Source of the DNA: a marine bacterium B5-7
Lineage (GTDB): Bacteria; Pseudomonadota; Gammaproteobacteria; Arenicellales; CAJQKF01
Length of the DNA: 64,000 nucleotides
NCBI GenBank assembly: GCA_021604525.1
Contig: BQJD01000010.1
Location: 1 to 64,000, forward strand
Direction of reading: 5' to 3'
Shown here piece by piece: positions 5,909 through 23,069 of the stretch. Position 1 is the stretch's first letter. Each line of letters opens with the position of its first letter. The notes below the pieces were generated by a model. The model ran no database searches and was not told the origin of the DNA. It worked only from the letters and a program-made list of their open reading frames with translations. The position numbers and the translations under genes were made by a program.

Positions 5909-6777
5909 ATCAGAGAACCCTTGAAAAGGTCATCCAGTCGATCCCCACTTCAGACGGCGCTGGTGTAAGTCTGCGTCGAAGTATTGGCAGCAGCGACGCG
6001 GATCGTCATGATCCGTTTTTAATGCTGGATGAATTTTTCTCGGATGACCCGAACGATTATATTGCCGGGTTTCCCTCCCATCCCCATCGCGGATTTGAAA
6101 CAGTCACTTACATGCTCGATGGTTGTATGCGTCACGAGGATAACGTCGGCAATGCCGGAAATCTTGGGCCGGGTGATGTTCAATGGATGACTGCAGCGGG
6201 AGGAATTATTCATTCCGAAATGCCGCAACAGCGTGAGGGTCGGATGCGTGGATTTCAATTGTGGATCAATTTGCCAGCCAGTGACAAAATGAAACCAGCG
6301 AAGTATCGCGATATTCTGGCACAAGATATTCCAACGGCTGCGTTGGATGGTGGAGGTCAGGCACGGGTAATAGCAGGCAGCCTCACACAGGGCAACGTGG
6401 TTACCCATGGGCCGATTCCGGACAAAAATTCTGAATCTATGGTCGCGCCTCTTTACCTTGACATACATCTGCCACCGATAACTCAGGCAAACATACCCAT
6501 TGATGAAGGCCACAACGCATTTACCTACTTATACGAAGGCGATGTTGTCATGGGTGAAGACCGGCGCATGCTGAACAGGTATTCCGCAGGCATTCTATCC
6601 GGTGGTGATACAGTGTGTATTCAATCTGGTGAGAAAGCGGCACGTCTGTTATTAATCGCTGGAAAACCTCTGGGTGAGCCTGTCGTTCAATACGGACCAT
6701 TTGTCATGAATACACCACAGGAGATCGAACGTGCGATTGAGGACTATCGCCAGAACCGTCTTTTCGGAACGGCTTGA
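5905..6777 (+). CDS. pirin family protein
   Basis: HPHRGFETVTYMLDG...GDVQWMTAAGGIIHSEMP pirin signature; ATGA overlap with upstream gene. Confidence 0.93.
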   Translation: MNQRTLEKVIQSIPTSDGAGVSLRRSIGSSDADRHDPFLMLDEFFSDDPNDYIAGFPSHPHRGFETVTYMLDGCMRHEDNVGNAGNLGPGDVQWMTAAGGIIHSEMPQQREGRMRGFQLWINLPASDKMKPAKYRDILAQDIPTAALDGGGQARVIAGSLTQGNVVTHGPIPDKNSESMVAPLYLDIHLPPITQANIPIDEGHNAFTYLYEGDVVMGEDRRMLNRYSAGILSGGDTVCIQSGEKAARLLLIAGKPLGEPVVQYGPFVMNTPQEIERAIEDYRQNRLFGTA

Positions 6778-7592
6778 TCAAAATGATTAATCAGTCGGCA
6801 ACCGACGAGTTCAATGTTTTGACGACAACACGTTTTGGACGGATGCTGGTTAACCGCCATGATGTGTATATCGGTCGTTCACTCATTGTGTACGGTGAAT
6901 ATTCGTGGGGCGAGATTGAGATTTTCACTCAATTAATTCAACCCGGTCATGTTGTCATCGAGGCAGGTGCGAATATAGGTGCGCATACCGTGCCATTATC
7001 GCGACTTGCAGGCGAAGGTGGCAGGGTATTGGCATTTGAACCAACGCGCCTTACCTTTCAGCTTTTAAATGCCAATATCGCATTGAATCAGTGTTCAAAT
7101 GTTGTAGCGGTCAACGCTATCGTCGGCGATACCTCAGGCCATGCACTAGCGCCGGACATTGATCCAGAACAATCGAATAATTTTGGCGGCCTGTCGATGA
7201 TCGGCCTGGAACATGGCGAACGCGTGCCGGTACAAACAATTGATGGACTTGATCTGGCGCGTTGTAACTTTATCAAGGCGGATGTTGAAGGAATGGAGAT
7301 GGATGTTTTAAAAGGCGCTGTCGACACATTAAGCAAACATCGTCCGTTACTGTATGTCGAAAATCATAATCGTGAATCCTCCGTCGAACTGATTGAATAT
7401 ATTCAACGACAAGGCTACAAACTTTGGTGGCACACGCCATCATTATTCAATCCGGAAAATTATCGGGGTATAGCAGTTGATGTGTTCGAAGGTGTCGTGT
7501 CATCGAATATGATCTGCATCCCTGAAGAACTGAAGATGAACGTGACCGATCTGCGTCCGGTGAAGGGATCGGATGAATGGTTATTTGATTAG
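6774..7592 (+). CDS. FkbM family methyltransferase
   Basis: VIEAGANIGAHTVPLSRLAGEGGRVLAFEPT SAM motif and FIKADVEGMEMDVLKG; start may be TTG 6774 or ATG 6783. Confidence 0.88.
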   Translation: MIKMINQSATDEFNVLTTTRFGRMLVNRHDVYIGRSLIVYGEYSWGEIEIFTQLIQPGHVVIEAGANIGAHTVPLSRLAGEGGRVLAFEPTRLTFQLLNANIALNQCSNVVAVNAIVGDTSGHALAPDIDPEQSNNFGGLSMIGLEHGERVPVQTIDGLDLARCNFIKADVEGMEMDVLKGAVDTLSKHRPLLYVENHNRESSVELIEYIQRQGYKLWWHTPSLFNPENYRGIAVDVFEGVVSSNMICIPEELKMNVTDLRPVKGSDEWLFD

Positions 7593-8144: not shown

Positions 8145-9188
8145 TTGTTGAAAGGTCAGTCGAGGAGAATGTCGGCAATACGATGCAGGATGGGTACACG
8201 TCTGTCGACCATCTGTCTGGTGATTATCGCATTACTGATACATCCCCCGCTTTGGGCGCAATCATTTGACGACGGTGTCGCTGCTTTTGAATCGATGGAC
8301 TACGAGCGCGCCGCAAAAATATGGGAACCACTCGCGACCAGTGGACATGTGCTTTCCCAGTACAACATGGGTCTGCTTTACGAAGAAGGTCTTGGTGTTC
8401 CCAAGGATCCCGACCTATCGTTTTTCTGGTACCGTTTAGCCGCCCTCAATGGTCACGATACCGCACAATACAATCTCGGCGGTCTGTATTTTCGTGGCAT
8501 CGGTGTGGAGCAATCGATTGACCAGGCGATTTACTGGTGGAGAAAGTCAGCGGATGCCGGAAATGTGGATGCAATGTTTAATCTTGGTGTTGTATTGTCA
8601 GAATATCCCGGTGATGCAGCATCAAGACAAATGGCTGCGGTTCGCCTGAAACAGGCCTATGATCTCGGCCATCCCCGCGCAGGGGCAGTCCTGGAAAGTC
8701 TCGGTGTCGCACCATCAGAGGCTGGTTCGTTATTCTTTTCGCCACCACCAGTAACGGATTTTTCGAGTCAAACCGAAACCGCGAACGCAGCAAATTTCAG
8801 AGGATTGTCAGCGCCGCCGGTTGTTGGCGCTACTGGCGGTGATCGATCTGGAGCATCCTTCGATGGCTTCCCACAGGATCTCGGCAACTTTCCCGATCTC
8901 GTCTGGGTTACAGATCAACCGGACGATCAGTACACAGTGCATATATATCCATACTTTGAAGATCGGGTGGCGAGATTTTATAAAGACAAGTGGTCATTTG
9001 GTAAACCGGGTGCTGTAATCAAGTCCAAGGATAAATTCCATGTTGTGGTCGGATCGTTTGACAGTCGCAAAGTAGCCGAATCGGTGTTGAAACAATTACT
9101 CGATAAGATGCCGGAAATTAAATACAAGAGTCATAAAGTAGATAGCTTTGATGAGGTCAAACAGCTATTTGAATTCCCTCACGAATAA
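8145..9188 (+). CDS. SEL1-like repeat protein with C-terminal SPOR-like domain
   Basis: SEL1 units (AQYNLGGLYFRGIGVEQSIDQAIYWWRKSADAGN); C-term FHVVVGSFDSRKVAESVLKQL; start may be internal ATG 8190. Confidence 0.8.
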   Translation: MLKGQSRRMSAIRCRMGTRLSTICLVIIALLIHPPLWAQSFDDGVAAFESMDYERAAKIWEPLATSGHVLSQYNMGLLYEEGLGVPKDPDLSFFWYRLAALNGHDTAQYNLGGLYFRGIGVEQSIDQAIYWWRKSADAGNVDAMFNLGVVLSEYPGDAASRQMAAVRLKQAYDLGHPRAGAVLESLGVAPSEAGSLFFSPPPVTDFSSQTETANAANFRGLSAPPVVGATGGDRSGASFDGFPQDLGNFPDLVWVTDQPDDQYTVHIYPYFEDRVARFYKDKWSFGKPGAVIKSKDKFHVVVGSFDSRKVAESVLKQLLDKMPEIKYKSHKVDSFDEVKQLFEFPHE

Positions 9189-9252: not shown

Positions 9253-10107
9253 TTACTCAGAACTATCCTTCAGTGCTTCCGGGAAAAAGGTTTTGTAGTA
9301 CCAATCGTATTGATTAAACAAATCCTGGCGGATACGTTGTGGCACTTCGTGATGACTCATCGGTCGAATACTTGAATGGGTTTTATGCGGATACTTGAAG
9401 CGATAATGACTATCGCTCTCATTCGGGTTCACAGTAAGATTTTGTGGATTAAATGCAAAAGCTTCAAGCCCGAGCCATTCGGCAATTTCCATCATCACAT
9501 CGATCGGACGAACGACCAGACGCTCATATTTTACATAGAGTATGTGTTTTTTTACTTCTTCTGGTATCTCCTCAAGCGCGGCTCGAACACCGGTCAGGCA
9601 GCGTGCCACCAATCCGGATCCGTTGAAGTACTGGCAGGCGCGGCCATAGCGAGTATGTCCGGCGACCCCATCTTCGGTGTCGAGAAGAATGGTTTTTTGA
9701 TGCTGCGCTTCAAGTGAGCCATAGAGTTGGCACAGCTCGCGTATACAGACGATCATTTTAAAATCGCCGTCGATCTGGTGAAGCGTCTCAATCAGGTTTA
9801 ACCAGGCACGATTTTTATCGACCACCCATTGCTTGTCTGTCTCAGCAAACCAGCCATTGATGAACCCGATAAGACCATTGCGGATTCTGCGATAGACAAG
9901 ATCGAACTCATTATCAAGCTGCGATAAAAGAAAACTGTCATTTGACAGGTTACGACGGATCGTGTCGACGGTATGCGCCAATGGCGACGAGTGGCCCAGG
10001 CTGTAAACACCCGGATGGTGACCGAATAGCTGGCACATGAGCGTGCTACCCGACCGTGGCAGGCCGGCGATGTAAATGATGTTCTTGTCCATTATTTGGT
10101 TGTGCAC
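9253..10107 (-). CDS. sulfotransferase family protein
   Basis: IYIAGLPRSGSTLMCQLFGHHPGVYSLG 5'-PSB/PAPS-binding-like motif; start may be internal ATG 10092. Confidence 0.85.
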   Translation of the reverse strand: MHNQIMDKNIIYIAGLPRSGSTLMCQLFGHHPGVYSLGHSSPLAHTVDTIRRNLSNDSFLLSQLDNEFDLVYRRIRNGLIGFINGWFAETDKQWVVDKNRAWLNLIETLHQIDGDFKMIVCIRELCQLYGSLEAQHQKTILLDTEDGVAGHTRYGRACQYFNGSGLVARCLTGVRAALEEIPEEVKKHILYVKYERLVVRPIDVMMEIAEWLGLEAFAFNPQNLTVNPNESDSHYRFKYPHKTHSSIRPMSHHEVPQRIRQDLFNQYDWYYKTFFPEALKDSSE

Positions 10108-10250
10108 TCGCGCTGTGTCGAAAAGTTAGCTGTTGATTAAACTATTCGGAAATTTCAAATTACTGGTTGTGCCCTGAAGGTACCGTGGCAACTTTATAAC
10201 CCCTTTGTAATCCCCCTGTAGAGCAGATCGAGAATTATTTGTTGTTTTTG

Positions 10251-11759
10251 TTATTCGCAATGATGGTGTTTCAGTAACTGGATGACTTCCTCGACCACAT
10301 CATTCCAATGCTCCGGCCTTGTCTGTCTCACCAATAGCATCGAATCGTACCAGATACAGCGATCACCTTCGTCAAGGTAGCGCCAGTCGGCATTGAATTT
10401 AAGCAAGACGATGCAGGGCTTGCCCAATCCACCTGCAAGATGAGCGACCGATGTATCGGTGGTCACTATTACATCGAGGGAATCCATCAGCGCGGCCGTG
10501 GCGTCCAGGCTGACAAGCATCGACGAGATATCGGTGAGCAAGGCATTTCCCGAATGATCTCGTACAGCCGGCATACGCGATAGATGCAGACTTATAAAAT
10601 GAGTCGAATCAGCCAACTCATCAAACACCGGTTCAAACAGCTTGAATGGAACACTCTTCTGGTAGCCCATCAAGCCGGTGGCCAGATTGGCGGTCAAGTT
10701 AAGGCCTACACGAAGCGGATGTGCAGCATCACCGACAGGTTTCCAGTCACGTGTACTTTCGGCATCAAGAAGACGATCTTTGAATATTGATGATTGTTCG
10801 CTGTCTGCCTTCAGATAGGTCGTACCATGAAAATCACTCGGATGTCTGCGCCGCCATCTGGCGAGTGAGCCGATAGGGCATTGATAATCGATTTTATGGT
10901 CACGGCACCACCCTGGATCATGGGGGTTCTTTTCCCATGCGGCAACCGATTCAGGGCTTCTATCGTGAATGATCACAGTCGCATCGCCAAACGATCGTTC
11001 GAAGAGATCAGCCAATGTCGGCGAGGCGGCAACAATGACATTGCTGCCTTCCTCGATAATCTCCGGAATTATCGATGCGAACATGATTTCGTCGCCTAAT
11101 CCTTGCTCGCCGTGAACGAGCAGGGTCTTGCCGGTAAGATCCTCGCCCTGCCAGCGGGTATGCGTAAATGGAAATGATGCGGTGCCCCAGCCAAATGCGT
11201 CGTGTCGTGCGTCGTAACCACGCCAGCCATCTTCAAATCGACCGCTAGCCAATTGTCGCATGGCGTACAGCCATTGTGTCATGGGGTCTTCAGGGGCAAG
11301 CTTTAATGCGGCCTGATAATGTGTTTCCGCTGCGTCAAATTCACGCAAATTATCCAGCGACTCGGCCGCCAGAAGGTGTGCTGCCAGATGATCGGGATGA
11401 TGCAGAAGAATGTCACTGGCACGGTCGGCTGCACGCCTGTACCGACCCGTTGCCTTGAAAAAGCGCCCGGCCAGCAACAGGGTGTGCACATCGTCTGATC
11501 GAAGTACGACGAGTCGCTCAAGGGATGACAGTGCGGACTCGACCCACACGGGCCAGATAATTTGTTCTTTTTCGCCGAAAGCTGGTGGTCTGCGGCTCTC
11601 ATCGAATAGCAACGCCGATTGTTCGCATGCCTGTGCCAGCCAGAAGTTGTTGCTCGCATCATGGGAGGCGGCTGATTCGAGCAGGGCAATACCCAGGATA
11701 CGACGACCAGCATTACAGTGCGCGATGCCGGCGTGTCCAATGGCATGTGGGTGGGTCAT
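10251..11759 (-). CDS. TPR-containing glycosyltransferase (GT9/heptosyltransferase-like)
   Basis: TPR N-term; LLVHGEQGLGDEIMFASIIPEI and VTTDTSVAHLAGGLGKPCIVLL; start chosen at internal ATG (MTHPHAIGHAG) to avoid overlap; ORF extends to 11852. Confidence 0.78.
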   Translation of the reverse strand: MTHPHAIGHAGIAHCNAGRRILGIALLESAASHDASNNFWLAQACEQSALLFDESRRPPAFGEKEQIIWPVWVESALSSLERLVVLRSDDVHTLLLAGRFFKATGRYRRAADRASDILLHHPDHLAAHLLAAESLDNLREFDAAETHYQAALKLAPEDPMTQWLYAMRQLASGRFEDGWRGYDARHDAFGWGTASFPFTHTRWQGEDLTGKTLLVHGEQGLGDEIMFASIIPEIIEEGSNVIVAASPTLADLFERSFGDATVIIHDRSPESVAAWEKNPHDPGWCRDHKIDYQCPIGSLARWRRRHPSDFHGTTYLKADSEQSSIFKDRLLDAESTRDWKPVGDAAHPLRVGLNLTANLATGLMGYQKSVPFKLFEPVFDELADSTHFISLHLSRMPAVRDHSGNALLTDISSMLVSLDATAALMDSLDVIVTTDTSVAHLAGGLGKPCIVLLKFNADWRYLDEGDRCIWYDSMLLVRQTRPEHWNDVVEEVIQLLKHHHCE

Positions 11760-11806
11760 TGTCTGTGATGAATCACTGGTGCTCAATTCGGGGTAGTCAC
11801 AATACG

Positions 11807-13369
11807 TTATCTGGCCGGTAGGGAATCGGCTGAATCGTCTTCGACCCCGCAATCTGTCAACAACAATATGTCGGCACGAACCGCTTCAAGCACGCTGCGC
11901 CAATCACCCTGACGGGATTGTCGAAACAATCGTACCGAGTCATACCAGGGAGTGGTGTCGCTATAGCGGCCCCAGCGCCAGTCTGCTGAAGTCATGAGTA
12001 ATGCCCGGCATGGCACGCTGAGTGCACCGGCAAGATGGGCAACGGATGTGTCAACGGAGATGACCAGATCCAGATTGGCGATCAAGGCAGCAGTATCGGT
12101 AAAGTCGTTCAGGTAATCCTGAAAATCGATGATGCCGAGCCCCGGCGCTTCGGCTGCCTCGGCACCGTTATCGCGATTCTGCAGACTGATGAAACGGACA
12201 CCTTCGCATTCAGCCAGTATCTGTAGCTCAGTGGCGGGTATGCTTTTACGTGCTGCCCGGCGCGCTCCCCAATCGACTTCACGGGCTGGATTGCTGCCCC
12301 ACATCAGACCTACTTTGAACTCGTTTTCAGAACCCGGCGCAAGTCGTTCAAGCAATCTGGCGAAACGACTTTTCTCACGCTGATTAAAGGCTAAATATCC
12401 CGCCGAGCTTTTTTTGAAGTCTTCGCTGGTATTTCTTCGATAGTGGCACAAACTGCCAATCGGAACGGCGAAATCGATCTGCCCAGCTTTGGACAGGTCC
12501 GCCGGTTGGGTATGGACTGCATGGGGTAGCACCTGGCATTGCGGAAAGGATTCTGCAAACAATCGTGCCAATGGCGCTCGACAGGCGATGATGATTCGAT
12601 CTGCCTCCCCAACAAGTTCCGGTATGACTGACGCGAACATGATTTCATCGCCCAATCCCTGTTCGCCGTGTATTAGCAAAGTCTTGCCGGCCAGCGATTC
12701 CCCCTGCCAGCGCGGCAGCGTATATGGATGGGCAGTGACCGAGGTTTTCACCGAAGCTTCGAAGCGGTGCTCGTAGTGCTCGAATCCGTCCGCATACTCC
12801 CCGATTTCAAGCAGGAAAAGGGCGTATTCCCAATGGGTGAGTGCGGTAAACGTAGTGTTACCGTCAAGTGCTTTGTCGAAGGCATCCCTGGCCTCATCGT
12901 TGCGATGCAGATGGGCGTAACACACCGCCAGCCGGTGATATAAATCCGGATAGATCGCGTCTTCACTCAAAATACCTTCAAAACATTCGGCTGCCAGGGA
13001 AAAATGATCGGAAACGCGAAGCAGTTCGCCGTAGTTCCACAGGGCATCGGTATGCCGGGGTCGGATACGAAGGCAATCGGCGTAGCGCAGCATGGCGCGT
13101 GCATCATCCCCCGTGCGTTGATAGGTGACTGCCAGGTTGTAGCAGATTTGCGGGTCATCCGGCGCTATTCGCCAAGCATGCTCAAGTACCGCCTGGGCTT
13201 GAACTTCGTTCTGTTGATTGGATAGCGACAGAGCCAGTATTTCCAGCACTCTTGGATTATCCGGTTCGCTCTGAAGCAGGTTGTTGCAGAGTTCCACGAC
13301 ACGGGCAAACCGTTTTTGCATGAACAGCGCGCGCAGGACATCGAGACCTTCGGAAGGATTATTTTGCAT
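11807..13369 (-). CDS. TPR-containing glycosyltransferase (GT9/heptosyltransferase-like), paralogue of downstream gene
   Basis: TPR units; LLIHGEQGLGDEIMFASVIPEL, VISVDTSVAHLAGALSVPCRALL, WYDSVRLFRQ. Confidence 0.82.
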   Translation of the reverse strand: MQNNPSEGLDVLRALFMQKRFARVVELCNNLLQSEPDNPRVLEILALSLSNQQNEVQAQAVLEHAWRIAPDDPQICYNLAVTYQRTGDDARAMLRYADCLRIRPRHTDALWNYGELLRVSDHFSLAAECFEGILSEDAIYPDLYHRLAVCYAHLHRNDEARDAFDKALDGNTTFTALTHWEYALFLLEIGEYADGFEHYEHRFEASVKTSVTAHPYTLPRWQGESLAGKTLLIHGEQGLGDEIMFASVIPELVGEADRIIIACRAPLARLFAESFPQCQVLPHAVHTQPADLSKAGQIDFAVPIGSLCHYRRNTSEDFKKSSAGYLAFNQREKSRFARLLERLAPGSENEFKVGLMWGSNPAREVDWGARRAARKSIPATELQILAECEGVRFISLQNRDNGAEAAEAPGLGIIDFQDYLNDFTDTAALIANLDLVISVDTSVAHLAGALSVPCRALLMTSADWRWGRYSDTTPWYDSVRLFRQSRQGDWRSVLEAVRADILLLTDCGVEDDSADSLPAR

Positions 13370-13669
13370 AGGGGATAAGGCTGTTTTTTATCGGATGATT
13401 CTATACAACATTTACCGCATTCGGGTGACGCTTGACACAACAAGTGCCCTGGTGGTCGGCAAGTGCGCTGGATATACACAAATTCATTATGATTTAAAGG
13501 TGGGGCAAGAACGATAAAAGGTTGTTTATGCTTGATTTTTGATGTTAAATAGTTACACGAGGCGTGTTGGAGGACCTCGTATGCGTCATCTTGCATTTGG
13601 TGGCCTGAAATCTAATCGAACTCGATTTCGCGGATTTACCCGGACTGCCGGTCGTGAAGGAGTTAAGGA

Positions 13670-16600
13670 ATGACAATGAAAAAACAATCACCTCACCTTC
13701 CTGCGATTAACGCCACAACTCGTTTGAAAGCAAGCAACCAGACATTGCCTCTCTTTCGACACACTGTGTTGGCGAGTTCAATCACGCTTCTGTATAGCTC
13801 AGTTCTTTATGGCGCAAATTTTGTCGATAACGGTGGCGTAGGCGGCCCTGTTGCTGGCGATAATAATGTCATGACCGGCCAGTCCTCTGGTCAATTTCTC
13901 TCCGGTAGCAATAATGTTGTCACCGGTGTGTTGGCTGGTCAGAGTCTGTCCGGAAACAACAACATCGCCACTGGATCACTCGCCGGCCAGAGTTTGAGCG
14001 GCCAATTCAATCAAGCATCCGGGTTTTATGCAGGTCAACGTCTGAGTGGTAACAACAACGAAGTAACCGGCCAATATGCGGGTCAAAATCTGATCGGAAA
14101 CAATAATATTGCCGAAGGCAGTAGCGCCGGTCGCAATCTTACCGGCAGTAATAATCAAGTCTCCGGATTGCAGGCCGGTTATAGATTAATCGGTGGGTAC
14201 AATCAGGCCAATGGTGCCTTCGCTGGTCAGAGCTTAAACGGTAACAACAATCAGGTCAGTGGCAATCGTGCTGGCCAGTTCATTATCGGTGACGACAATA
14301 TCGCAGTCGGCGATCGGGCGGGCCAGAGTTTAAGCGGCAATTGGAATCAGGTTTCTGGTCGTTACGCCGGCTTGTCATTAAGTGGTAACGACAATCAGGC
14401 ATTTGGTCGACGAGCAGGATATCGGCTGTCGGGCAGCCGTAACAGTCTCAATGGGGCATTTGCAGGTGCAAGTCTATCCGGAAGCGACAACATAGTTAGT
14501 GGAGTTGGCGCTGGTCAGGTATTGAGTGGCCAACATAATCAGGTTTCCGGGTACTTTGCGGGTGAGTACTTGAGCGGTAATGACAACCTGGCGACCGGTC
14601 GATATGCGGGCCGAAGCTTAAGCGGCAACAACAATCAGGTTTCCGGTGTGCGGGCAGGCCAAAATTTAAATGGCGATGACAATGTGGCCATGGGTACTCG
14701 TGCCGGTTACGCCGCACAGGGAAACAATAATGACCTCTCCGGTACTGCTGCCGGGTACAGCATGGTGGGTAGCTACAATGTAGCTTCCGGTACGTTCGCA
14801 GGCGCATACATGTCTGGCAGCTTTAATTCAGCTACCGGTGCGGGCGCAGGCTTCGCCATGTCCGGTTACGCGAATACCGCATCGGGTGTCGGTGCGGGCG
14901 CATTCCTGGAAGGTGACGCGAATTCGGTAAATGGTGCTTTTGCCGGAACCTACATGAGCGGCTATGGCAATACTGCCAGCGGTGCCGGTGCCGGTTTCGC
15001 CATGTCAGGCTATTACAATACAGCATCCGGTTTTGGTGCTGGTGCTTACATGTCGGGCGACTACAACACGGCAAGTGGCTATCGGGCCGGTGCCTACATG
15101 AGCGGCTACAGTAATGTTGCCTCGGGCTATCGTGCAGGTTATTCGCTGACCGGTTATGAAAATGTCGCCATCGGTGCAGAAGCCGGTGCTTACCTGTCTG
15201 GTGACGACAATGTGGCGATTGGCGATGAAGCTGGTGAATCTCTCAGTGGCTATAGTAATGTTGCAATAGGCGAGGAAGCTGGGCAACACCTTAACGGTAA
15301 TAACAATGTTGTAAGCGGACACGACGCCGGCGAATCGCTGACCGGCGACAATAATGTTGTTTCGGGCTTATATGCGGGTGAATCACTAAGCGGCGACAAC
15401 AACAATGCGTCAGGCTACCAGGCGGGTCAACGTTTGAGTGGTGAAGATAACAACGTCAGCGGTCGTAATGCCGGCCGGAATCTGCTGGGCGATGACAATG
15501 TAGCCAATGGAACGCGCTCGGGTCAAAACCTGGAGGGCGACTTTAACGTTCTGAACGGCACACGTTCCGGTGAGAATCTGATAGGTGACCAGAATATTGT
15601 TAGCGGTCGCAGAGCAGGTGAATATCTTTCCGGTAACGATAACTCGGTCAGCGGTACCCGTTCAGGACAGTATTTGTCCGGTGACAACAATATTGCCTCC
15701 GGCGCTGATTCCGGGCGGTACCTTTCCGGAACCCAGAATATCGCCACCGGTACCGGTGCAGGCGAGAACCTGACCGGCACGCGTAATGTCGCCATCGGTG
15801 GTTACGCACTACAGAATGTATCCGGCGACTATAACGTCGGCATTGGCTATCAGGCTGGTCAAAACCTGGGCAGCAGCGGCAATGCGTTGCTGGGCGACCA
15901 GGCCGGCCAGTACATGACCGGCGACTACAATGTTGCCACCGGCCGCCGCGCCGGCCAGTTCCTGTCTGGTGACTACAACACCGTCAGCGGTTATCGGTCC
16001 GGTCAAAGCCTAAGCGGGGATCGCAATGTCGCTACCGGTTATGACGCCGGCCGGTATCTGAGTGGTAATGAAAATACCGTGAGCGGACGCCGGGCTGGAA
16101 TGTCGCTGACAGGCAACCGCAATGTTGCAACCGGTGTCAGGGCAGGCGTTTCCCTTTCCGGTAATGTTAATGTCGCCATCGGCGAGAATGCCGGTTACGA
16201 GTTGTCCGGTAACGATAATTTTGTTGGCGGTGGAGACGCCGGCCGGTATCTGAGTGGCAACAATAACGTAGCAATCGGCGAAGATGCCGGGCGCAACCTG
16301 GTAGGCAACCATAACACTGCGATGGGAGAAGATGCCGGTCGGGACATGACCGGAAATCACAATCAGGTCATGGGTTATCGCGCGGGCAACCAGCTCTCCG
16401 GTGACAACAATCTTGTCAGTGGCAACCGGGCGGGCCTCAGTCTGTCCGGTAATGATAATCAGGTGTCGGGCAGGAACGCGGGCTACAGCCTGTCAGGTAA
16501 TAACAATATCGCCACTGGTGATACAGCCGGATACAACCTTACCGGTGATTACAATCTCGTTACGGGTCGTAATGCGGGTAGAAATCTCTTGGGTGAAGAT

Positions 16601-19600
16601 AATGTCGTCTCCGGCCGGAATGCCGGCAGGGATCTCAGCGGTGATGATAATTTCGTCTCCGGCCGGGATGCGGGTCGCCGATTGACAGGCAACAGAAACA
16701 TCATCATAGGTGAAGATGCCGGTCGGGACATGACCGGAAGCAGCAACCTGGCGCAAGGGTTCAACGCGGGTCAGGATTTATCCGGCGATAACAATATCGT
16801 GTCTGGTGAAAATGCCGGCCAAAACCTGTCCGGCAATGAAAATATAGTATCGGGTATAGGCGCCGGTCAGTCGCTCTCAGGTTTTCAGAATGTCGCTACC
16901 GGCTCGCGTGCCGGTGCCATATTGACAGGTAATAACAATGTCGCCATCGGTCGTGATGCCGGTTACCTTCTGTCGGGCAACGATAATATGGTGTCAGGCT
17001 CCAATGCCGGCCGCAACCTCAGCGGTAATTCCAATATCGCTTCGGGCGATAATGCCGGCAACAGGCTGTCCGGCGATAACAACATTGCCTCGGGTACCCG
17101 CGCCGGTTTCAGACTTACCGGTGATGACAACCAGGTATCCGGCCGGTATGCCGGAGAATCACTGACGGGTGACGACAATATTGCCAGTGGCCGATATGCG
17201 GGGCAGAACCTGTCCGGGGCTGATAATCTGGTTAATGGCCGGCGTGCCGGTTTAAATCTCACAGGAAGCAATAACCTTGTGAGTGGCGTGAATGCCGGTC
17301 AAAATTTATTCGGCGATGATAACGTGGCGACAGGCCGACGAGCGGGTCGTAACCTGACCGGTGGTAATAACCTGGTTAGCGGTGCGAATGCTGGCGGGTA
17401 TTTGACCGGCGACGATAACATTGCCACGGGACGTCGGTCAGGCCAGTACTTGTCTGGTAACTATAATTCGGTCAGCGGTTTCCGTTCAGGACAATACTTG
17501 TCAGGCGATGACAATATCGCCTCTGGTCGCGATTCCGGACGAAACCTTTCCGGAACCCAGAATATCGCAACCGGTACCGGTGCAGGCGAGAACCTGACTG
17601 GCACGCGTAATATCGCCATCGGCGGTTACGCGCTACAGAATGTATCCGGCAACTATAACGTCGCCATCGGCTATCAGTCTGGTCAGAACCTCGGTAGCAG
17701 CGGCAATGCCTTGCTGGGCGATCAGGCTGGCCAGTATATGACCGGTGACTACAACGTCGCCATCGGCCGACGTGCCGGACAGTTTTTATCCGGTAACTAC
17801 AACTCGGTCAGCGGCTACCGGTCGGGACAGTACCTATCCGGCGAAAACAATACGGCTTCCGGGTATCAGTCAGCCCGGTATTTAAGTGGCAATAGTAATG
17901 TCGCATCCGGTTTTAACGCGGGATACAACCTGACCGGCGACGACAATATCGCGACCGGGCAGAATGCCGGTCGAAATCTCAACGGTGACAACAATGCAGT
18001 GACAGGCCAGAACGCCGGTCGAAATCTCAGCGGCGATAACAATGTTGCATCGGGTCAGTCAGCTGGTCGTAATCTGACCGGCGACAACAATGTTGCGTCA
18101 GGACAGAATGCCGGCCGAAATCTCAGCGGCGATAACAATATTGCGTCGGGCCAGTCTGCCGGTCGTAATCTCAGCGGCGACAATAACCTGGCGTTGGGAG
18201 AAAATGCCGGCCGAGATCTCTCCGGCAACAATAATCTGGTTAGCGGTTTAAATGCGGGCGAAAGCCTGACCGGTTCGGGTAACATTGCATCCGGTCAGTC
18301 CGCCGGACAAAACCTGTCAGGCTTCAACAACACCGCATTCGGTTCCTATGCCGGGCAGAATCTGTCTGGTAATGCCAATGATCTGCAAGGCTTCGGTGCC
18401 GGCCAGTATCTGTCGGGGTTCAATAACACGGCTTTCGGCTCTTATGCCGGTCGTAACCTGTCCGGGAACGCCAATGATCTGCAGGGATTCAGTGCAGGCA
18501 GCAATCTGTCCGGGTTTAATAACACGGCGTTTGGTTCGTATGCCGGCCAAAACCTGACGGGCAATGCCAATAACGTAACCGGTTTCAATGCAGGTCAAAA
18601 TCTTTCCGGTTATAACAATATTGCCAACGGCTCATGGGCTGGCCAGAATTTATCAGGCAACTTCAATCAGGCAAGTGGCTATGGCGCAGGTCAATATTTG
18701 TCCGGTAATTACAATATTGCCGATGGTCGACTCGCGGGTCGGAATCTTTCGGGCTATAACAATATTGCGTCGGGCCAATACGCGGGGCAAAACCTGTCGG
18801 GTAACAGCAATTTTGTCAGCGGTTACCGCGCCGGTCAGTATTTGACGGGTAACGTCAATGTCGCAACGGGCGCACTCGCAGGCGCCAATATCAGCGGCGA
18901 CGCCAATACCGTGAGCGGCCATGTGGCCGGTTATTCCATGCAGGGATCCTACAACACCGCTACGGGCGTCGGTGCAGGCAGCTATCTGAGTGGTTATGGT
19001 AACGTTGCCTCGGGCGTACGCGCTGGATATTCCCTGCAAGGTGATGACAACGTTGTGTCGGGAACACGTTCCGGTGCTTACCTGAGCGGTTACGGCAATG
19101 TCGCTTCCGGCACTGATGCCGGTTATTCCATGACCGGCTATGAAAATGTCGCCATCGGGGCAGAAGCCGGTGCTTCCCTGTCCGGTGACGATAATGTGGC
19201 GATTGGCGATGAAGCTGGCGAATCTCTCAGCGGCTATAGCAATGTTGCAATTGGCGAGGAAGCAGGACAATCACTCCTCGGCAACAATAATGTAGTTCAG
19301 GGTCACGATGCCGGTGAATCATTGAGTGGCAATGCCAACATTGTGTCTGGTCGAAGTGCCGGTAAATCCTTGAGCGGTAGCTACAACACCGTAGCCGGAT
19401 ATCAGGCTGGTCAACGATTAAGCGGAAGCGACAACATTGCAACGGGTCGTCGGGCTGGCAGGGATTTGACCGGATACGATAATGTGGTCAGCGGCAGAAA
19501 CGCCGGTGACAGCATGGTTGGTAACGACAATCTGGCCAATGGACGGCGTGCGGGTGAGAATCTGGTCGGTGATGACAATACCTTAAGTGGTGTACGTGCA

Positions 19601-20752
19601 GGCCAAAACCTGACAGGTAGTGATAACGTAGCCAGTGGTCGCCGGTCGGCTCAGAACCTGATCGGTGATGATAATGTTGTCAGTGGTACACGTGCAGCTC
19701 AGAATCTGACGGGTTATGACAACGTGGCAAGTGGCCGCAGGGCAGGTGAGAATCTTTCCGGTAACGACAATGTGGTTTCAGGAAGAAACGCCGGGCAAAA
19801 CCTGTCGGGTGATTCCAATATCGCCATTGGCCTTAATGCCAATCAGAATCCTGGTGGGACGGTGAATAACACTATTGCTATTGGTAATGGCTCATCGGCT
19901 ACTGCAGACGGCGCCATTGCCATCGGGTTTGGCGCAGTCGCAACCGGATCCCAGGCCATCGGTAATTTCGCCACGGCTTCCAACGGCGGCTCGGCGTTCG
20001 GTGACAACAGCACGGCAACAGGTGCCGTTAGCGTGTCCATTGGTGATAGTTCGTCGGCAACCGGTAATCGCGCAACGGCGGTTGGCGGTGGTGCCAGTGC
20101 TTCGGGCGTACATGGCACAGCAGTAGGCGAAGGTGCATCGGCAAGCGGAGCCTATTCCACCGCTGTGGGTGGTGAATCGTCAGCGGCTCACGACAATTCG
20201 GTGGCACTTGGCCATGGTTCGGTTACATCGAGACCCAATGTGGTTTCGGTGGGTGCACCGGGAGCGGAGCGCATAATCGAAAACGTTGGCGATGGCGTGC
20301 AACCCTATGATGCTGTCAATGTCCGACAGTTGTCGGCGGCGTGGGGTGCGATCGGAGCGAACTCGTCGAAAATCGCGACCAACCGTCGTGATATCGATAA
20401 AAATACGCGTAAAATCTCACAGAACATGATGGACATCGCCGACAACCGGGCTCGAATCGGAGCGCTTGAAGGCGAGATAGATGACGTTCGTGACGAAGCT
20501 CGCGCTGGCATCGCAGCAGTGGCGGCTCTGAGTGCAGCCTATCAGCCGTCCCTTGATCCCGGTCAAACCGGTTGGGGCCTCGGTGCGGGTTACTTCAAGG
20601 GCGAGGAAGCCGTTGGTGTGACGATTAATCACCGAATGAAATCAAGTGACACTCAGTTCAACTTCGGCGTTGGCTCCAGCGGCGAAGGTGAAGTGCTACG
20701 CGTTGGTGTGGGTGGTACGTTCGGTACTACCAAGGCATCAGTAGCGGAGTAA
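13670..20752 (+). CDS. giant YadA-type trimeric autotransporter adhesin
   Basis: 2360 aa; N-terminal signal-like segment; 125 x 16-aa repeats; YadA-head-like AIG...A.A.G repeats; neck GDGVQPYDAVNVRQL; coiled coil; anchor AGIAAVAALSAAYQPSLDPGQTGWGLGAGYFKGEEAVGVTINHRM. Confidence 0.93.
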   Translation: MTMKKQSPHLPAINATTRLKASNQTLPLFRHTVLASSITLLYSSVLYGANFVDNGGVGGPVAGDNNVMTGQSSGQFLSGSNNVVTGVLAGQSLSGNNNIATGSLAGQSLSGQFNQASGFYAGQRLSGNNNEVTGQYAGQNLIGNNNIAEGSSAGRNLTGSNNQVSGLQAGYRLIGGYNQANGAFAGQSLNGNNNQVSGNRAGQFIIGDDNIAVGDRAGQSLSGNWNQVSGRYAGLSLSGNDNQAFGRRAGYRLSGSRNSLNGAFAGASLSGSDNIVSGVGAGQVLSGQHNQVSGYFAGEYLSGNDNLATGRYAGRSLSGNNNQVSGVRAGQNLNGDDNVAMGTRAGYAAQGNNNDLSGTAAGYSMVGSYNVASGTFAGAYMSGSFNSATGAGAGFAMSGYANTASGVGAGAFLEGDANSVNGAFAGTYMSGYGNTASGAGAGFAMSGYYNTASGFGAGAYMSGDYNTASGYRAGAYMSGYSNVASGYRAGYSLTGYENVAIGAEAGAYLSGDDNVAIGDEAGESLSGYSNVAIGEEAGQHLNGNNNVVSGHDAGESLTGDNNVVSGLYAGESLSGDNNNASGYQAGQRLSGEDNNVSGRNAGRNLLGDDNVANGTRSGQNLEGDFNVLNGTRSGENLIGDQNIVSGRRAGEYLSGNDNSVSGTRSGQYLSGDNNIASGADSGRYLSGTQNIATGTGAGENLTGTRNVAIGGYALQNVSGDYNVGIGYQAGQNLGSSGNALLGDQAGQYMTGDYNVATGRRAGQFLSGDYNTVSGYRSGQSLSGDRNVATGYDAGRYLSGNENTVSGRRAGMSLTGNRNVATGVRAGVSLSGNVNVAIGENAGYELSGNDNFVGGGDAGRYLSGNNNVAIGEDAGRNLVGNHNTAMGEDAGRDMTGNHNQVMGYRAGNQLSGDNNLVSGNRAGLSLSGNDNQVSGRNAGYSLSGNNNIATGDTAGYNLTGDYNLVTGRNAGRNLLGEDNVVSGRNAGRDLSGDDNFVSGRDAGRRLTGNRNIIIGEDAGRDMTGSSNLAQGFNAGQDLSGDNNIVSGENAGQNLSGNENIVSGIGAGQSLSGFQNVATGSRAGAILTGNNNVAIGRDAGYLLSGNDNMVSGSNAGRNLSGNSNIASGDNAGNRLSGDNNIASGTRAGFRLTGDDNQVSGRYAGESLTGDDNIASGRYAGQNLSGADNLVNGRRAGLNLTGSNNLVSGVNAGQNLFGDDNVATGRRAGRNLTGGNNLVSGANAGGYLTGDDNIATGRRSGQYLSGNYNSVSGFRSGQYLSGDDNIASGRDSGRNLSGTQNIATGTGAGENLTGTRNIAIGGYALQNVSGNYNVAIGYQSGQNLGSSGNALLGDQAGQYMTGDYNVAIGRRAGQFLSGNYNSVSGYRSGQYLSGENNTASGYQSARYLSGNSNVASGFNAGYNLTGDDNIATGQNAGRNLNGDNNAVTGQNAGRNLSGDNNVASGQSAGRNLTGDNNVASGQNAGRNLSGDNNIASGQSAGRNLSGDNNLALGENAGRDLSGNNNLVSGLNAGESLTGSGNIASGQSAGQNLSGFNNTAFGSYAGQNLSGNANDLQGFGAGQYLSGFNNTAFGSYAGRNLSGNANDLQGFSAGSNLSGFNNTAFGSYAGQNLTGNANNVTGFNAGQNLSGYNNIANGSWAGQNLSGNFNQASGYGAGQYLSGNYNIADGRLAGRNLSGYNNIASGQYAGQNLSGNSNFVSGYRAGQYLTGNVNVATGALAGANISGDANTVSGHVAGYSMQGSYNTATGVGAGSYLSGYGNVASGVRAGYSLQGDDNVVSGTRSGAYLSGYGNVASGTDAGYSMTGYENVAIGAEAGASLSGDDNVAIGDEAGESLSGYSNVAIGEEAGQSLLGNNNVVQGHDAGESLSGNANIVSGRSAGKSLSGSYNTVAGYQAGQRLSGSDNIATGRRAGRDLTGYDNVVSGRNAGDSMVGNDNLANGRRAGENLVGDDNTLSGVRAGQNLTGSDNVASGRRSAQNLIGDDNVVSGTRAAQNLTGYDNVASGRRAGENLSGNDNVVSGRNAGQNLSGDSNIAIGLNANQNPGGTVNNTIAIGNGSSATADGAIAIGFGAVATGSQAIGNFATASNGGSAFGDNSTATGAVSVSIGDSSSATGNRATAVGGGASASGVHGTAVGEGASASGAYSTAVGGESSAAHDNSVALGHGSVTSRPNVVSVGAPGAERIIENVGDGVQPYDAVNVRQLSAAWGAIGANSSKIATNRRDIDKNTRKISQNMMDIADNRARIGALEGEIDDVRDEARAGIAAVAALSAAYQPSLDPGQTGWGLGAGYFKGEEAVGVTINHRMKSSDTQFNFGVGSSGEGEVLRVGVGGTFGTTKASVAE
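13850..19849 (+). repeat. in-frame tandem array, 125 x 48 bp (16-aa unit, approx. LSGNNNIVSGRNAGQN)
   Basis: First unit VAGDNNVMTGQSSGQF (13850), last LSGDSNIAIGLNANQN (ends 19849); total 6000 bp = 125 x 48; long-range matches at 1824 bp (38 x 48) and 3984 bp (83 x 48) confirm phase. Confidence 0.95.
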
Positions 20753-20849: not shown

Positions 20850-23069
20850 CTACTTCGTGGTCAGTTCGAACACACCATCCCAATCTTTGTCAGGCGGGCT
20901 TTCCATGAAGAGCGCAATGCGCTGACGGTACATCTCAAACAGAACTGCCAGTGATGGAAGCGGTGGTTCTTTGCTGAACCATTCAAGCGATTCAGCAAAT
21001 CGTTGATTTCTGAAATCGTCAAGAGCAGTACGCTGAGATTCTATTAACGAACTGTAGTCGGTGGAGTTTTCTTTTTTCTCACCCAGCGGGGCAAATATTC
21101 CTACTGGCTTCTGCTTACCCTTTACCCTGACCTGATCGAGTTCCAGGTAGTGAAAACCGGGCGCTTCGGCGACTGTGAATTCACTGGCGATAATGTCCAC
21201 CCCGTATATCTTGGTCAAGCCTTCAATACGCGAACCCAGGTTGACTGCGTCTCCCATGACGGTATAGGCGACGCGAAACTCGGAGCCCATGTTACCGACG
21301 CTCATCTCGCCGGTGTTCACACCGATTCCGACTTTGATCCGCGACCATCCCTCTGCCTCGAAGTCCGGTCCGAGTCGTTCAATATGATCGCGCATTTCAA
21401 GTGCAGCGGACACGGCGCGTGAGGCATGGTCATCAAGATGAATTGGCGCACCCCAGAAGGCCATCAATGCGTCACCCATGTATTTGTCTATCGTGCCTTT
21501 GGATCGGTGTACAGCGCCGGTGAGTGGGGTAAGAAAGCTGTTCATCATCCGGGTTAATTCACCGGCATCCATCTTCTCGGAAATACTGGTGAAATTGCGC
21601 ACGTCACTGAACAGAACAGTCAATTCACGTTTCTGACCTTCGAGTGAATAGCTGCCAGGATCGCGACTCATCTCGTCCACCAACTCGGGTGGAATATACT
21701 GACCGAACAATTTACCGAGGGCATTCTTTCGGCGCGTTTCGAAAAAGAAACCGAAGATCACGTTCATCACATAGATCAACGCTATTACCGATAAAGCCGA
21801 TGCGAACGGAATGACATGCTGCAGGGTATCCCATGCATATACATTCACTGTGCCAATAGAAGCGACAATCAGGAATGTGATCACCCCCCCAACCAGAGGC
21901 GAGGTTAGAGATAGCAAAAATGACAGAATCAAACCCGACATGATCACTGTCAGGAGATCAACGGCGATCGTGTAGGCAGGCTGTTGCTTGACTTCGTCGT
22001 CGAGAATGCCCGCAATCATATTGGCATGGATTTCAACCCCGGGATAGACGTTTTGAACCGGTGTTGGTCGAAGATCCACAAGACCCGCTGCAGTTGTGCC
22101 AATCAGTGCTATCGTGCCTGCCAGAAGGTCGCCATCGGGTACCACACCATTAAGCACATCCGTCGCAGATATGTATGTAAAGGTACCTTCCGGGCCTTTG
22201 TATGGAACCAGTGTTGTCGCGTTTGCATCCAGAGGAATCAGCGCACCGGCCACATCCAGGGCTTCCAAGGCAGGATAGTCGCCGAGAGATTCATTACCCG
22301 GCGCCAGCACCGGTTCGGCATCGATCCCAAGATAGGATTGCACAGCGGCCAACGCCAGTGCCGGATACATATTGCCTTCGTATTCGACGATAACCGGAAT
22401 GCGTCTATAGACTCCATCATCATCAACCACAGGATTTGAAAAGTAGCCGCCGGACAGTGCGCTCGACTGAAGCACATCCAGATTAGCGGCATAACCGGTG
22501 GCTTGAATGGCGTAGGTGGTGTTCTGGATACCTGATTCGGCATCGAATAGCGGTGGTGGCAATGTGCCGACGATACTGTTTTCGTCGGGATCATGATGAA
22601 AAAAGTATCCGAGAACAACCCGACCGGATTCTTCTATATCTTTAGAAAAAATCTTGTCGCGATCCATCAACGGTTCATATTTATCGAGTTCGCGCAGTAG
22701 TTGGGCATCATCATCCTGATTGGCAAATTCACGAAGCTGATCCATTGAAAAATTGCGATCTTTTTCGGGAAATACCATATCGAAGGCGATTACTTCGACC
22801 TGATATTTGTCGGTCAACTGTTTGACGAGTTCGCCAATTCGGTCACGGCGCCACGGCCAGCGTCCTTCAGCAGCCAGGCTTTTCTCGTCGATATCGATGA
22901 TCACGATTCGCGGATCGGTTTCACCGTGTGCCGTCAGGCGGACCCTGGCATCGTAAATGGCAAATTCGAGCAGTTTAAGAAAAGGTATGTTGACATAGCC
23001 GGCAATACCCGCAGCGAAGTAGGCAGTTATTACAAGACCAAGGATAATCGGAATGAATTTTCGCGTCAT
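20850..23069 (-). CDS. CHASE2 domain-containing adenylate/guanylate cyclase
   Basis: N-terminal CHASE2 (DPRIVIIDIDEKSLAAEGRWPWRR), TM segments, class III cyclase domain (LTVLFSDVRNFTSISEKM...DKYMGDALMAFWGAP...GIGVNTGEMSVGNMG). Confidence 0.93.
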   Translation of the reverse strand: MTRKFIPIILGLVITAYFAAGIAGYVNIPFLKLLEFAIYDARVRLTAHGETDPRIVIIDIDEKSLAAEGRWPWRRDRIGELVKQLTDKYQVEVIAFDMVFPEKDRNFSMDQLREFANQDDDAQLLRELDKYEPLMDRDKIFSKDIEESGRVVLGYFFHHDPDENSIVGTLPPPLFDAESGIQNTTYAIQATGYAANLDVLQSSALSGGYFSNPVVDDDGVYRRIPVIVEYEGNMYPALALAAVQSYLGIDAEPVLAPGNESLGDYPALEALDVAGALIPLDANATTLVPYKGPEGTFTYISATDVLNGVVPDGDLLAGTIALIGTTAAGLVDLRPTPVQNVYPGVEIHANMIAGILDDEVKQQPAYTIAVDLLTVIMSGLILSFLLSLTSPLVGGVITFLIVASIGTVNVYAWDTLQHVIPFASALSVIALIYVMNVIFGFFFETRRKNALGKLFGQYIPPELVDEMSRDPGSYSLEGQKRELTVLFSDVRNFTSISEKMDAGELTRMMNSFLTPLTGAVHRSKGTIDKYMGDALMAFWGAPIHLDDHASRAVSAALEMRDHIERLGPDFEAEGWSRIKVGIGVNTGEMSVGNMGSEFRVAYTVMGDAVNLGSRIEGLTKIYGVDIIASEFTVAEAPGFHYLELDQVRVKGKQKPVGIFAPLGEKKENSTDYSSLIESQRTALDDFRNQRFAESLEWFSKEPPLPSLAVLFEMYRQRIALFMESPPDKDWDGVFELTTK

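Follow-up and report, generated by a model that had tools for sequence, protein, structure and literature searches.

Two TPR-containing glycosyltransferases and a sulfotransferase encoded beside a giant trimeric autotransporter adhesin: a probable adhesin-decoration module in a marine gammaproteobacterium

Cytoplasmic glycosylation of type V adhesins has been described for only two kinds of enzyme, the bacterial autotransporter heptosyltransferases (BAHTs) and the HMW1C-type transferases, and the adhesin glycosyltransferases known so far work in the cytoplasm, ahead of Sec export (PMC8151025). BAHTs have a β-barrel N-terminus and a four-cysteine iron finger (PMC4358343), and the HMW1C/EtpC-type N-glycosyltransferases (NGTs) also modify trimeric autotransporters (reviewed in PMC8151025). 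FlmG, the flagellin O-glycosyltransferase of Caulobacter, binds its substrate through an N-terminal tetratricopeptide repeat (TPR) domain, and its GT-B-like C-terminal domain glycosylates the flagellin in the cytoplasm, before it is exported (PMC7591256). The Xanthomonas RaxST/RaxX/RaxAB system encodes a sulfotransferase resembling the tyrosylprotein sulfotransferases (TPSTs) together with its secreted substrate and exporter (PMC6637879). The locus described here lies in a window of 64,000 nucleotides from marine bacterium B5-7 (Gammaproteobacteria, order Arenicellales; contig BQJD01000010.1, positions 1 to 64,000), in which two TPR-containing glycosyltransferases (GTs), GT1 and GT2, and a sulfotransferase, ST, are encoded next to a giant trimeric autotransporter adhesin (TAA). 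The three enzymes probably constitute a cytoplasmic module that decorates the adhesin before export, by glycosylation and by sulfation dependent on 3'-phosphoadenosine 5'-phosphosulfate (PAPS). Adhesin decoration is the most likely function because the GT and ST genes accompany adhesins of this kind in related bacteria.

The genes for ST (9253-10107, 284 aa), GT2 (10251-11852) and GT1 (11807-13369, 520 aa) are on the minus strand, and a divergent intergenic region of 300 bp (13370-13669) separates GT1 from the adhesin gene (13670-20752, plus strand, 2360 aa), whose product is the proposed substrate. This gene set, its divergent orientation and its open reading frame (ORF) coordinates are as given in the original prediction, which was made from the sequence alone. 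The start of GT2 is uncertain and may be a TTG at 11852 or 11786 or an ATG at 11759. A scan of the divergent region turned up no sigma-70-type promoter pattern. The adhesin has YadA_head repeats, a YadA anchor (PF03895, 20558-20713, 35 bits) near the C-terminal end and a BimA-type C-terminus (47 bits); the YadA head and the YadA anchor together place it among the trimeric autotransporters (type Vc). It contains an array of 16-aa units, typically xAGQNLSGNNNVASGx, at approximately 13835-19834 on the plus strand. A core-pattern search counts 122 units, 118 spacings being exactly 16, so that the 125 units first proposed were right to within a few. In this array 82% of the units have Ser or Thr at position 7, and 66% have one of the two at position 14.

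The gene set of the cluster is kept through rearrangement. Among the 109 genomes of the order that were surveyed, G001 (same genus; GT1 57% identical) has ST, GT2 and GT1 in the order of the window, divergent from a 2534-aa TAA with 16-aa repeats, with 4-bp overlaps between ST and GT2 and between GT2 and GT1; its ST was located by profile search in a GC-rich stretch. G002 repeats the 4-bp overlap of GT2 and ST on a short contig, and its long 16-aa-repeat adhesin is on a separate contig. G003, from the same family, has GT1, GT2, a 468-aa 16-aa-repeat TAA, ST (50% identical) and a Sel1-repeat gene together but rearranged, the adhesin gene separating GT2 from ST. G048 belongs to another family; there an FkbM methyltransferase gene comes after GT1, and a short YadA-anchor adhesin after that. 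It is these four gene sets that indicate maintenance through rearrangement. Of the 109 genomes, 19 encode a YadA anchor and 26 give TPR-GT9 matches. GT1 orthologues, defined by a score above 390 bits, are present in five, four of which have a YadA anchor on the same contig at a distance of at most 10 kb; the fifth orthologue is on a 6-kb contig. The order's other, lower-scoring TPR-GTs, the GT2s excepted, have no YadA anchor within 25 kb. The predicted link of the GT-GT-ST set to the adhesin holds beyond the window genome.

GT1 and GT2 both have N-terminal TPRs (residues ~5-203 in GT1) and a weak GT9 signature, PF01075 matching the C-terminal segment of GT1 with 26.2 bits, above the 22-bit gathering cut-off, and GT2 with 19.7 bits, below it. 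As originally noticed, these two TPR+GT9-like transferases share the motifs HGEQGLGDEIMFAS and DTSVAHLAG. The structure model of GT1 (predicted local distance difference test, pLDDT, 91.5) has a TPR superhelix followed by a GT-B domain, which is the architecture of OGT, SPINDLY (SPY) and FlmG, and its nearest folds in the PDB are SPINDLY and OGT; the overall template-modelling (TM) scores to SPY and OGT are low (0.26-0.37), so the architecture is assigned and not the family. FlmG is the nearest precedent for the GTs and has the same domain order, a likeness of architecture; it differs in its substrate, flagellin, in its sugar, pseudaminic acid, and in having no sulfotransferase. The HMW1C/EtpC NGTs are likewise adhesin-dedicated cytoplasmic GTs, but they are Asn-directed and of the GT41 type, and the GT41 profile PF13844 (OGT, HMW1C NGT) matches neither GT1 nor GT2.

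The BAHTs Aah and TibC, to which the original prediction compared the two enzymes, are similar to GT1 and GT2 as dedicated cytoplasmic transferases for a type V adhesin with a heptosyltransferase-type catalytic domain. The comparison does not extend to the rest of the protein. Residues 5-203 of GT1 are all-helical TPR in the model and not a β-barrel, C263 is the sole invariant Cys among GT1 orthologues where the iron finger of the BAHT C-lobe has four, and the BAHT model in NCBIfam matches neither protein. BAHT membership was rejected because of the domain architecture and the lack of the cysteines, and the original prediction probably had the target right and the transferase family wrong. Lipopolysaccharide (LPS) heptosyltransferases also belong to the GT9 fold family, and the majority of TPR-GT9 proteins are not near a TAA, as would be expected if the substrate of GT1 and GT2 (and ST) were LPS, capsule or some other surface glycan, and chance or co-regulation had placed them close to the adhesin. 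Such a role is improbable in view of the N-terminal TPR and SPINDLY/OGT-like architecture and of the way that GT1 orthologues specifically keep to TAAs across genus, family and order; no LPS or capsule genes were recognised among the ORFs examined beside the cluster.

The linkage to TAAs is confined to the GT1/GT2 clade, and the wider TPR-GT9 family was rejected as a family of adhesin GTs. In 369 genomes drawn evenly from the class, about 70 further TPR-GT matches are also unlinked to TAAs. TPR-GT matches on Paraburkholderia and Caballeronia plasmids have no TAA within 12 kb. Consistent occurrence of such clusters without the adhesin had been named as grounds for giving up the original prediction; it is not seen in the window's family, and it applies in part to the wider TPR-GT9 family, which is mostly unlinked. 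In the tree, the TAA-linked GT1s group together (Shimodaira-Hasegawa-like approximate likelihood ratio test, SH-aLRT, 92) as sister to a Burkholderiales clade, and the GT2s form a group of their own (88). The Burkholderiales genomes sampled for the sister clade encode TAAs in 5/5 cases, versus 17/369 in the class draw; the Fisher value of 5e-11 is only indicative because the class background is unmatched for taxonomy, and the value within the order is 0.003, on five genomes. Within the sister clade it is only in Ottowia that the GT pair has a 16-aa-repeat adhesin nearby, at about 7 kb. TAAs of the Hydromonas clade (L272, L275 and L277, from Hydromonas and a Burkholderiaceae metagenome-assembled genome, MAG) have ASLST-type repeats, some with 33-42% Ser+Thr.

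Other TPR-GTs have neighbours of their own. Plasmid pBMC401 of Burkholderia ambifaria (L135 1-17939) encodes a YadA-like adhesin, OmpA, H-NS, two DUF2827 proteins, two TPR-GTs and an FkbM protein within about 18 kb, and these TPR-GTs are distant from GT1 and GT2 and branch elsewhere in the tree. A trimeric autotransporter C-terminus at L200 (G014:C229, 3-4042) is directly followed by a GT41 TPR protein (OGT-like, PF13844 1e-50) and then a Sel1 protein, an adhesin-glycosyltransferase pairing from a different enzyme family. The window's own genome has a second TPR-GT9 pair (C7:130176-134617; L038 9677-14118), which adjoins a protein of 172 aa whose N-terminus is SRRKLL/TAT-like (twin-arginine translocation). 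The TPR-GTs of L055 and L053 have similar small proteins next to them, and those of L046 an unrecognised one of 213 aa.

ST is a PAPS-type sulfotransferase with a predicted TPST fold, matching PF13469 at 52.6 bits against a cut-off of 27 bits. Its PAPS motifs (GLPR-GST, with R18, which reads GLPRSGST in ST; R123/S131) are invariant across 16 homologues. With the structure model (pLDDT 85.8), the first 13 fold matches in the PDB are all TPST1/2 or tick TPST (E 4e-9 to 7e-8, TM 0.52-0.65), ahead of the heparan 3-O-sulfotransferases (3-OSTs). Human TPST1 and TPST2 are the nearest solved fold and have the PAPS-binding motifs, and they are 16-21% identical to ST in structural alignments.

Within the order ST occurs in 4/109 genomes, all from the window's family and all with 16-aa-repeat TAAs. 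The window genome has three copies. The second (contig C7, 73% identical) is directly 5' of a second 16-aa-repeat TAA, and the third (C50, more distant) immediately follows the 3' end of a third TAA gene, at the edge of its contig; neither has an adjacent GT. Fourteen distant homologues were inspected, drawn from 399 genomes of the phylum with one from the class draw, and eight of them are immediately 5', on the same strand (from overlapping to 195 bp apart), of a gene for a giant secreted protein of about 1240-2980 aa (p about 3e-7 against a rough background of 2.9% of ORFs with at least 1200 aa). The giants are a TPS-domain exoprotein, a DUF4347 protein with an autotransporter barrel, a DUF4347-cadherin protein, and LEPR-like or uncharacterised Ser/Thr/Gly-rich proteins. 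A plasmid of Caballeronia sp. SBC2 (L260 6299-15342) encodes on one strand a Peptidase_M10 secreted protein, ST, an adenosine 5'-phosphosulfate (APS) kinase, a C39-ABC exporter, HlyD and TolC, and a Nostoc plasmid has an RTX protein, ST and cysC; the plasmid ST homologues of Acetobacter and Komagataeibacter have no secreted-protein/APS-kinase neighbour of this kind. RaxST is the nearest precedent for ST, by description and gene layout, and the Caballeronia locus repeats the Rax plan with a large substrate. RaxX itself is a 60-aa peptide, unlike the giant adhesins that accompany ST here.

The pairing of ST with adhesins in general is more surprising than the GT set. Some relatives of each gene stand alone, as they might if the neighbours were an accident of a surface-gene island with no common substrate, but this is very improbable given the 4-bp gene overlaps, the co-occurrence after rearrangement in G003, and the fact that ST is paired with an adhesin independently at three places in one genome and again in other genera. 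A broader reading, offered tentatively, is that an undescribed and widespread class of PAPS-dependent sulfotransferases serves the giant secreted adhesins of Gram-negative bacteria (exported by routes of types I, Va, Vb and Vc), sulfating them routinely on Tyr or on an adhesin-linked sugar, and is encoded alongside them, sometimes with its own APS kinase. As part of the same possibility, the window may hold a version of this class that has been joined to a GT pair.

Several observations weigh against a module that decorates the adhesin. Three of the four copies in the third ST clade (C50-type) are near an isoleucyl-tRNA synthetase-like gene and not a TAA, the C50-type copy adjoining no TAA in the three ST genomes other than the window's, and several alphaproteobacterial ST homologues adjoin no large secreted protein. 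GT1 is present in G059, in which no TAA was detected, and the GT pairs of Hydromonas and two Burkholderiaceae MAGs have no adjacent TAA, though these genomes encode TAAs. No GT or ST is annotated near the 16-aa-repeat TAAs of Variovorax, Agrobacterium and Methylobacterium. In ST itself, the position aligned to the catalytic Glu of the TPSTs, which we take to be Glu99 of TPST2, is Ser, and ST is therefore not filed as a TPST. The ST family alignment also has no invariant His/Glu between the two PAPS motifs.

The analysis shows which genes the cluster contains, that their linkage is conserved, and which folds and cofactor motifs their products are predicted to have; the substrate, the residues and sugar involved and the order of events are inferred. 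The TPR superhelix of GT1 and GT2 would bind the newly made adhesin in the cytoplasm, and the C-terminal GT-B domain would add a sugar, for which O-linkage to the Ser/Thr of unit positions 7 and 14 is the most plausible. ST would sulfate the same adhesin with PAPS, ahead of Sec export, trimerisation and surface assembly. No obvious signal sequence is seen in the translations of GT1, GT2 or ST. The acceptor of ST is more likely to be polypeptide, with Tyr as the first candidate, than sugar, because ST pairs with adhesins where GTs are absent and because its modelled fold is TPST-like. The Tyr enrichment of ST-linked repeats (0.55-1.58 Tyr per 16-aa unit vs 0.22-0.44 in unlinked ones) is weakly in agreement with a polypeptide acceptor, and GT-linked adhesins tend to have more Ser/Thr at position 7. 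In both comparisons the samples are few and related, and the giants next to other STs are not rich in Tyr, so we claim no acceptor.

The original prediction came close to a different product, a sulfated O-glycan, in which ST would sulfate the glycan placed on the adhesin by GT1 and GT2. ST follows GT1 and GT2 in one apparent operon within the genus, and, as in glycan maturation, GT1 is accompanied by an FkbM methyltransferase in G048 and G059. Sulfation of the glycan is nonetheless unlikely, since ST has no adjacent GTs beside the C7 adhesin and the giants of other genera, where GTs could act from another locus, and since its fold is nearer to the protein (TPST) than to the carbohydrate (3-OST) sulfotransferases.

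Two genes on the plus strand that were overlooked in the original prediction have relatives in the same cluster type elsewhere. The Sel1-repeat protein (8145-9188; Sel1 9e-25) is a probable cluster member, with relatives beside ST in G003 (L043 5261-6139) and after ST at C50. The FkbM-type methyltransferase (6774-7592; PF05050, 79 bits) is a possible member and is 51% identical to the product of the G048 FkbM gene that sits between GT1 and the TAA. FkbM of the window type occurs in 7/100 genomes of the order, and five of these seven also have a GT1 or GT2 like those of the window. A DUF2827 gene adjoins GT1 in G048 and G059. A CHASE2-cyclase gene (20850-23069) is convergent to the adhesin gene, and a CHASE2 gene also adjoins a 16-aa-repeat adhesin in Variovorax (L137). 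Co-linkage of CHASE2 with the adhesin cluster was dropped, as the candidate in G003 gave no CHASE2 match.

The literature searched contains no description of a dedicated enzyme that sulfates bacterial adhesins; nothing relevant was found on a sulfotransferase with a trimeric autotransporter or giant adhesin, most subscription-journal papers being outside the reach of the search. To our knowledge, bacterial protein sulfation has been described essentially for RaxX alone (PMC6637879). If the GT-GT-ST module does act on the TAA, its TPR + GT-B enzymes would be a third kind of adhesin glycosyltransferase. The recurrent pairing of ST with giant adhesins, if it reflects function, would make adhesin sulfation a general bacterial modification, one that would have consequences for cell-surface charge, ion binding and recognition.

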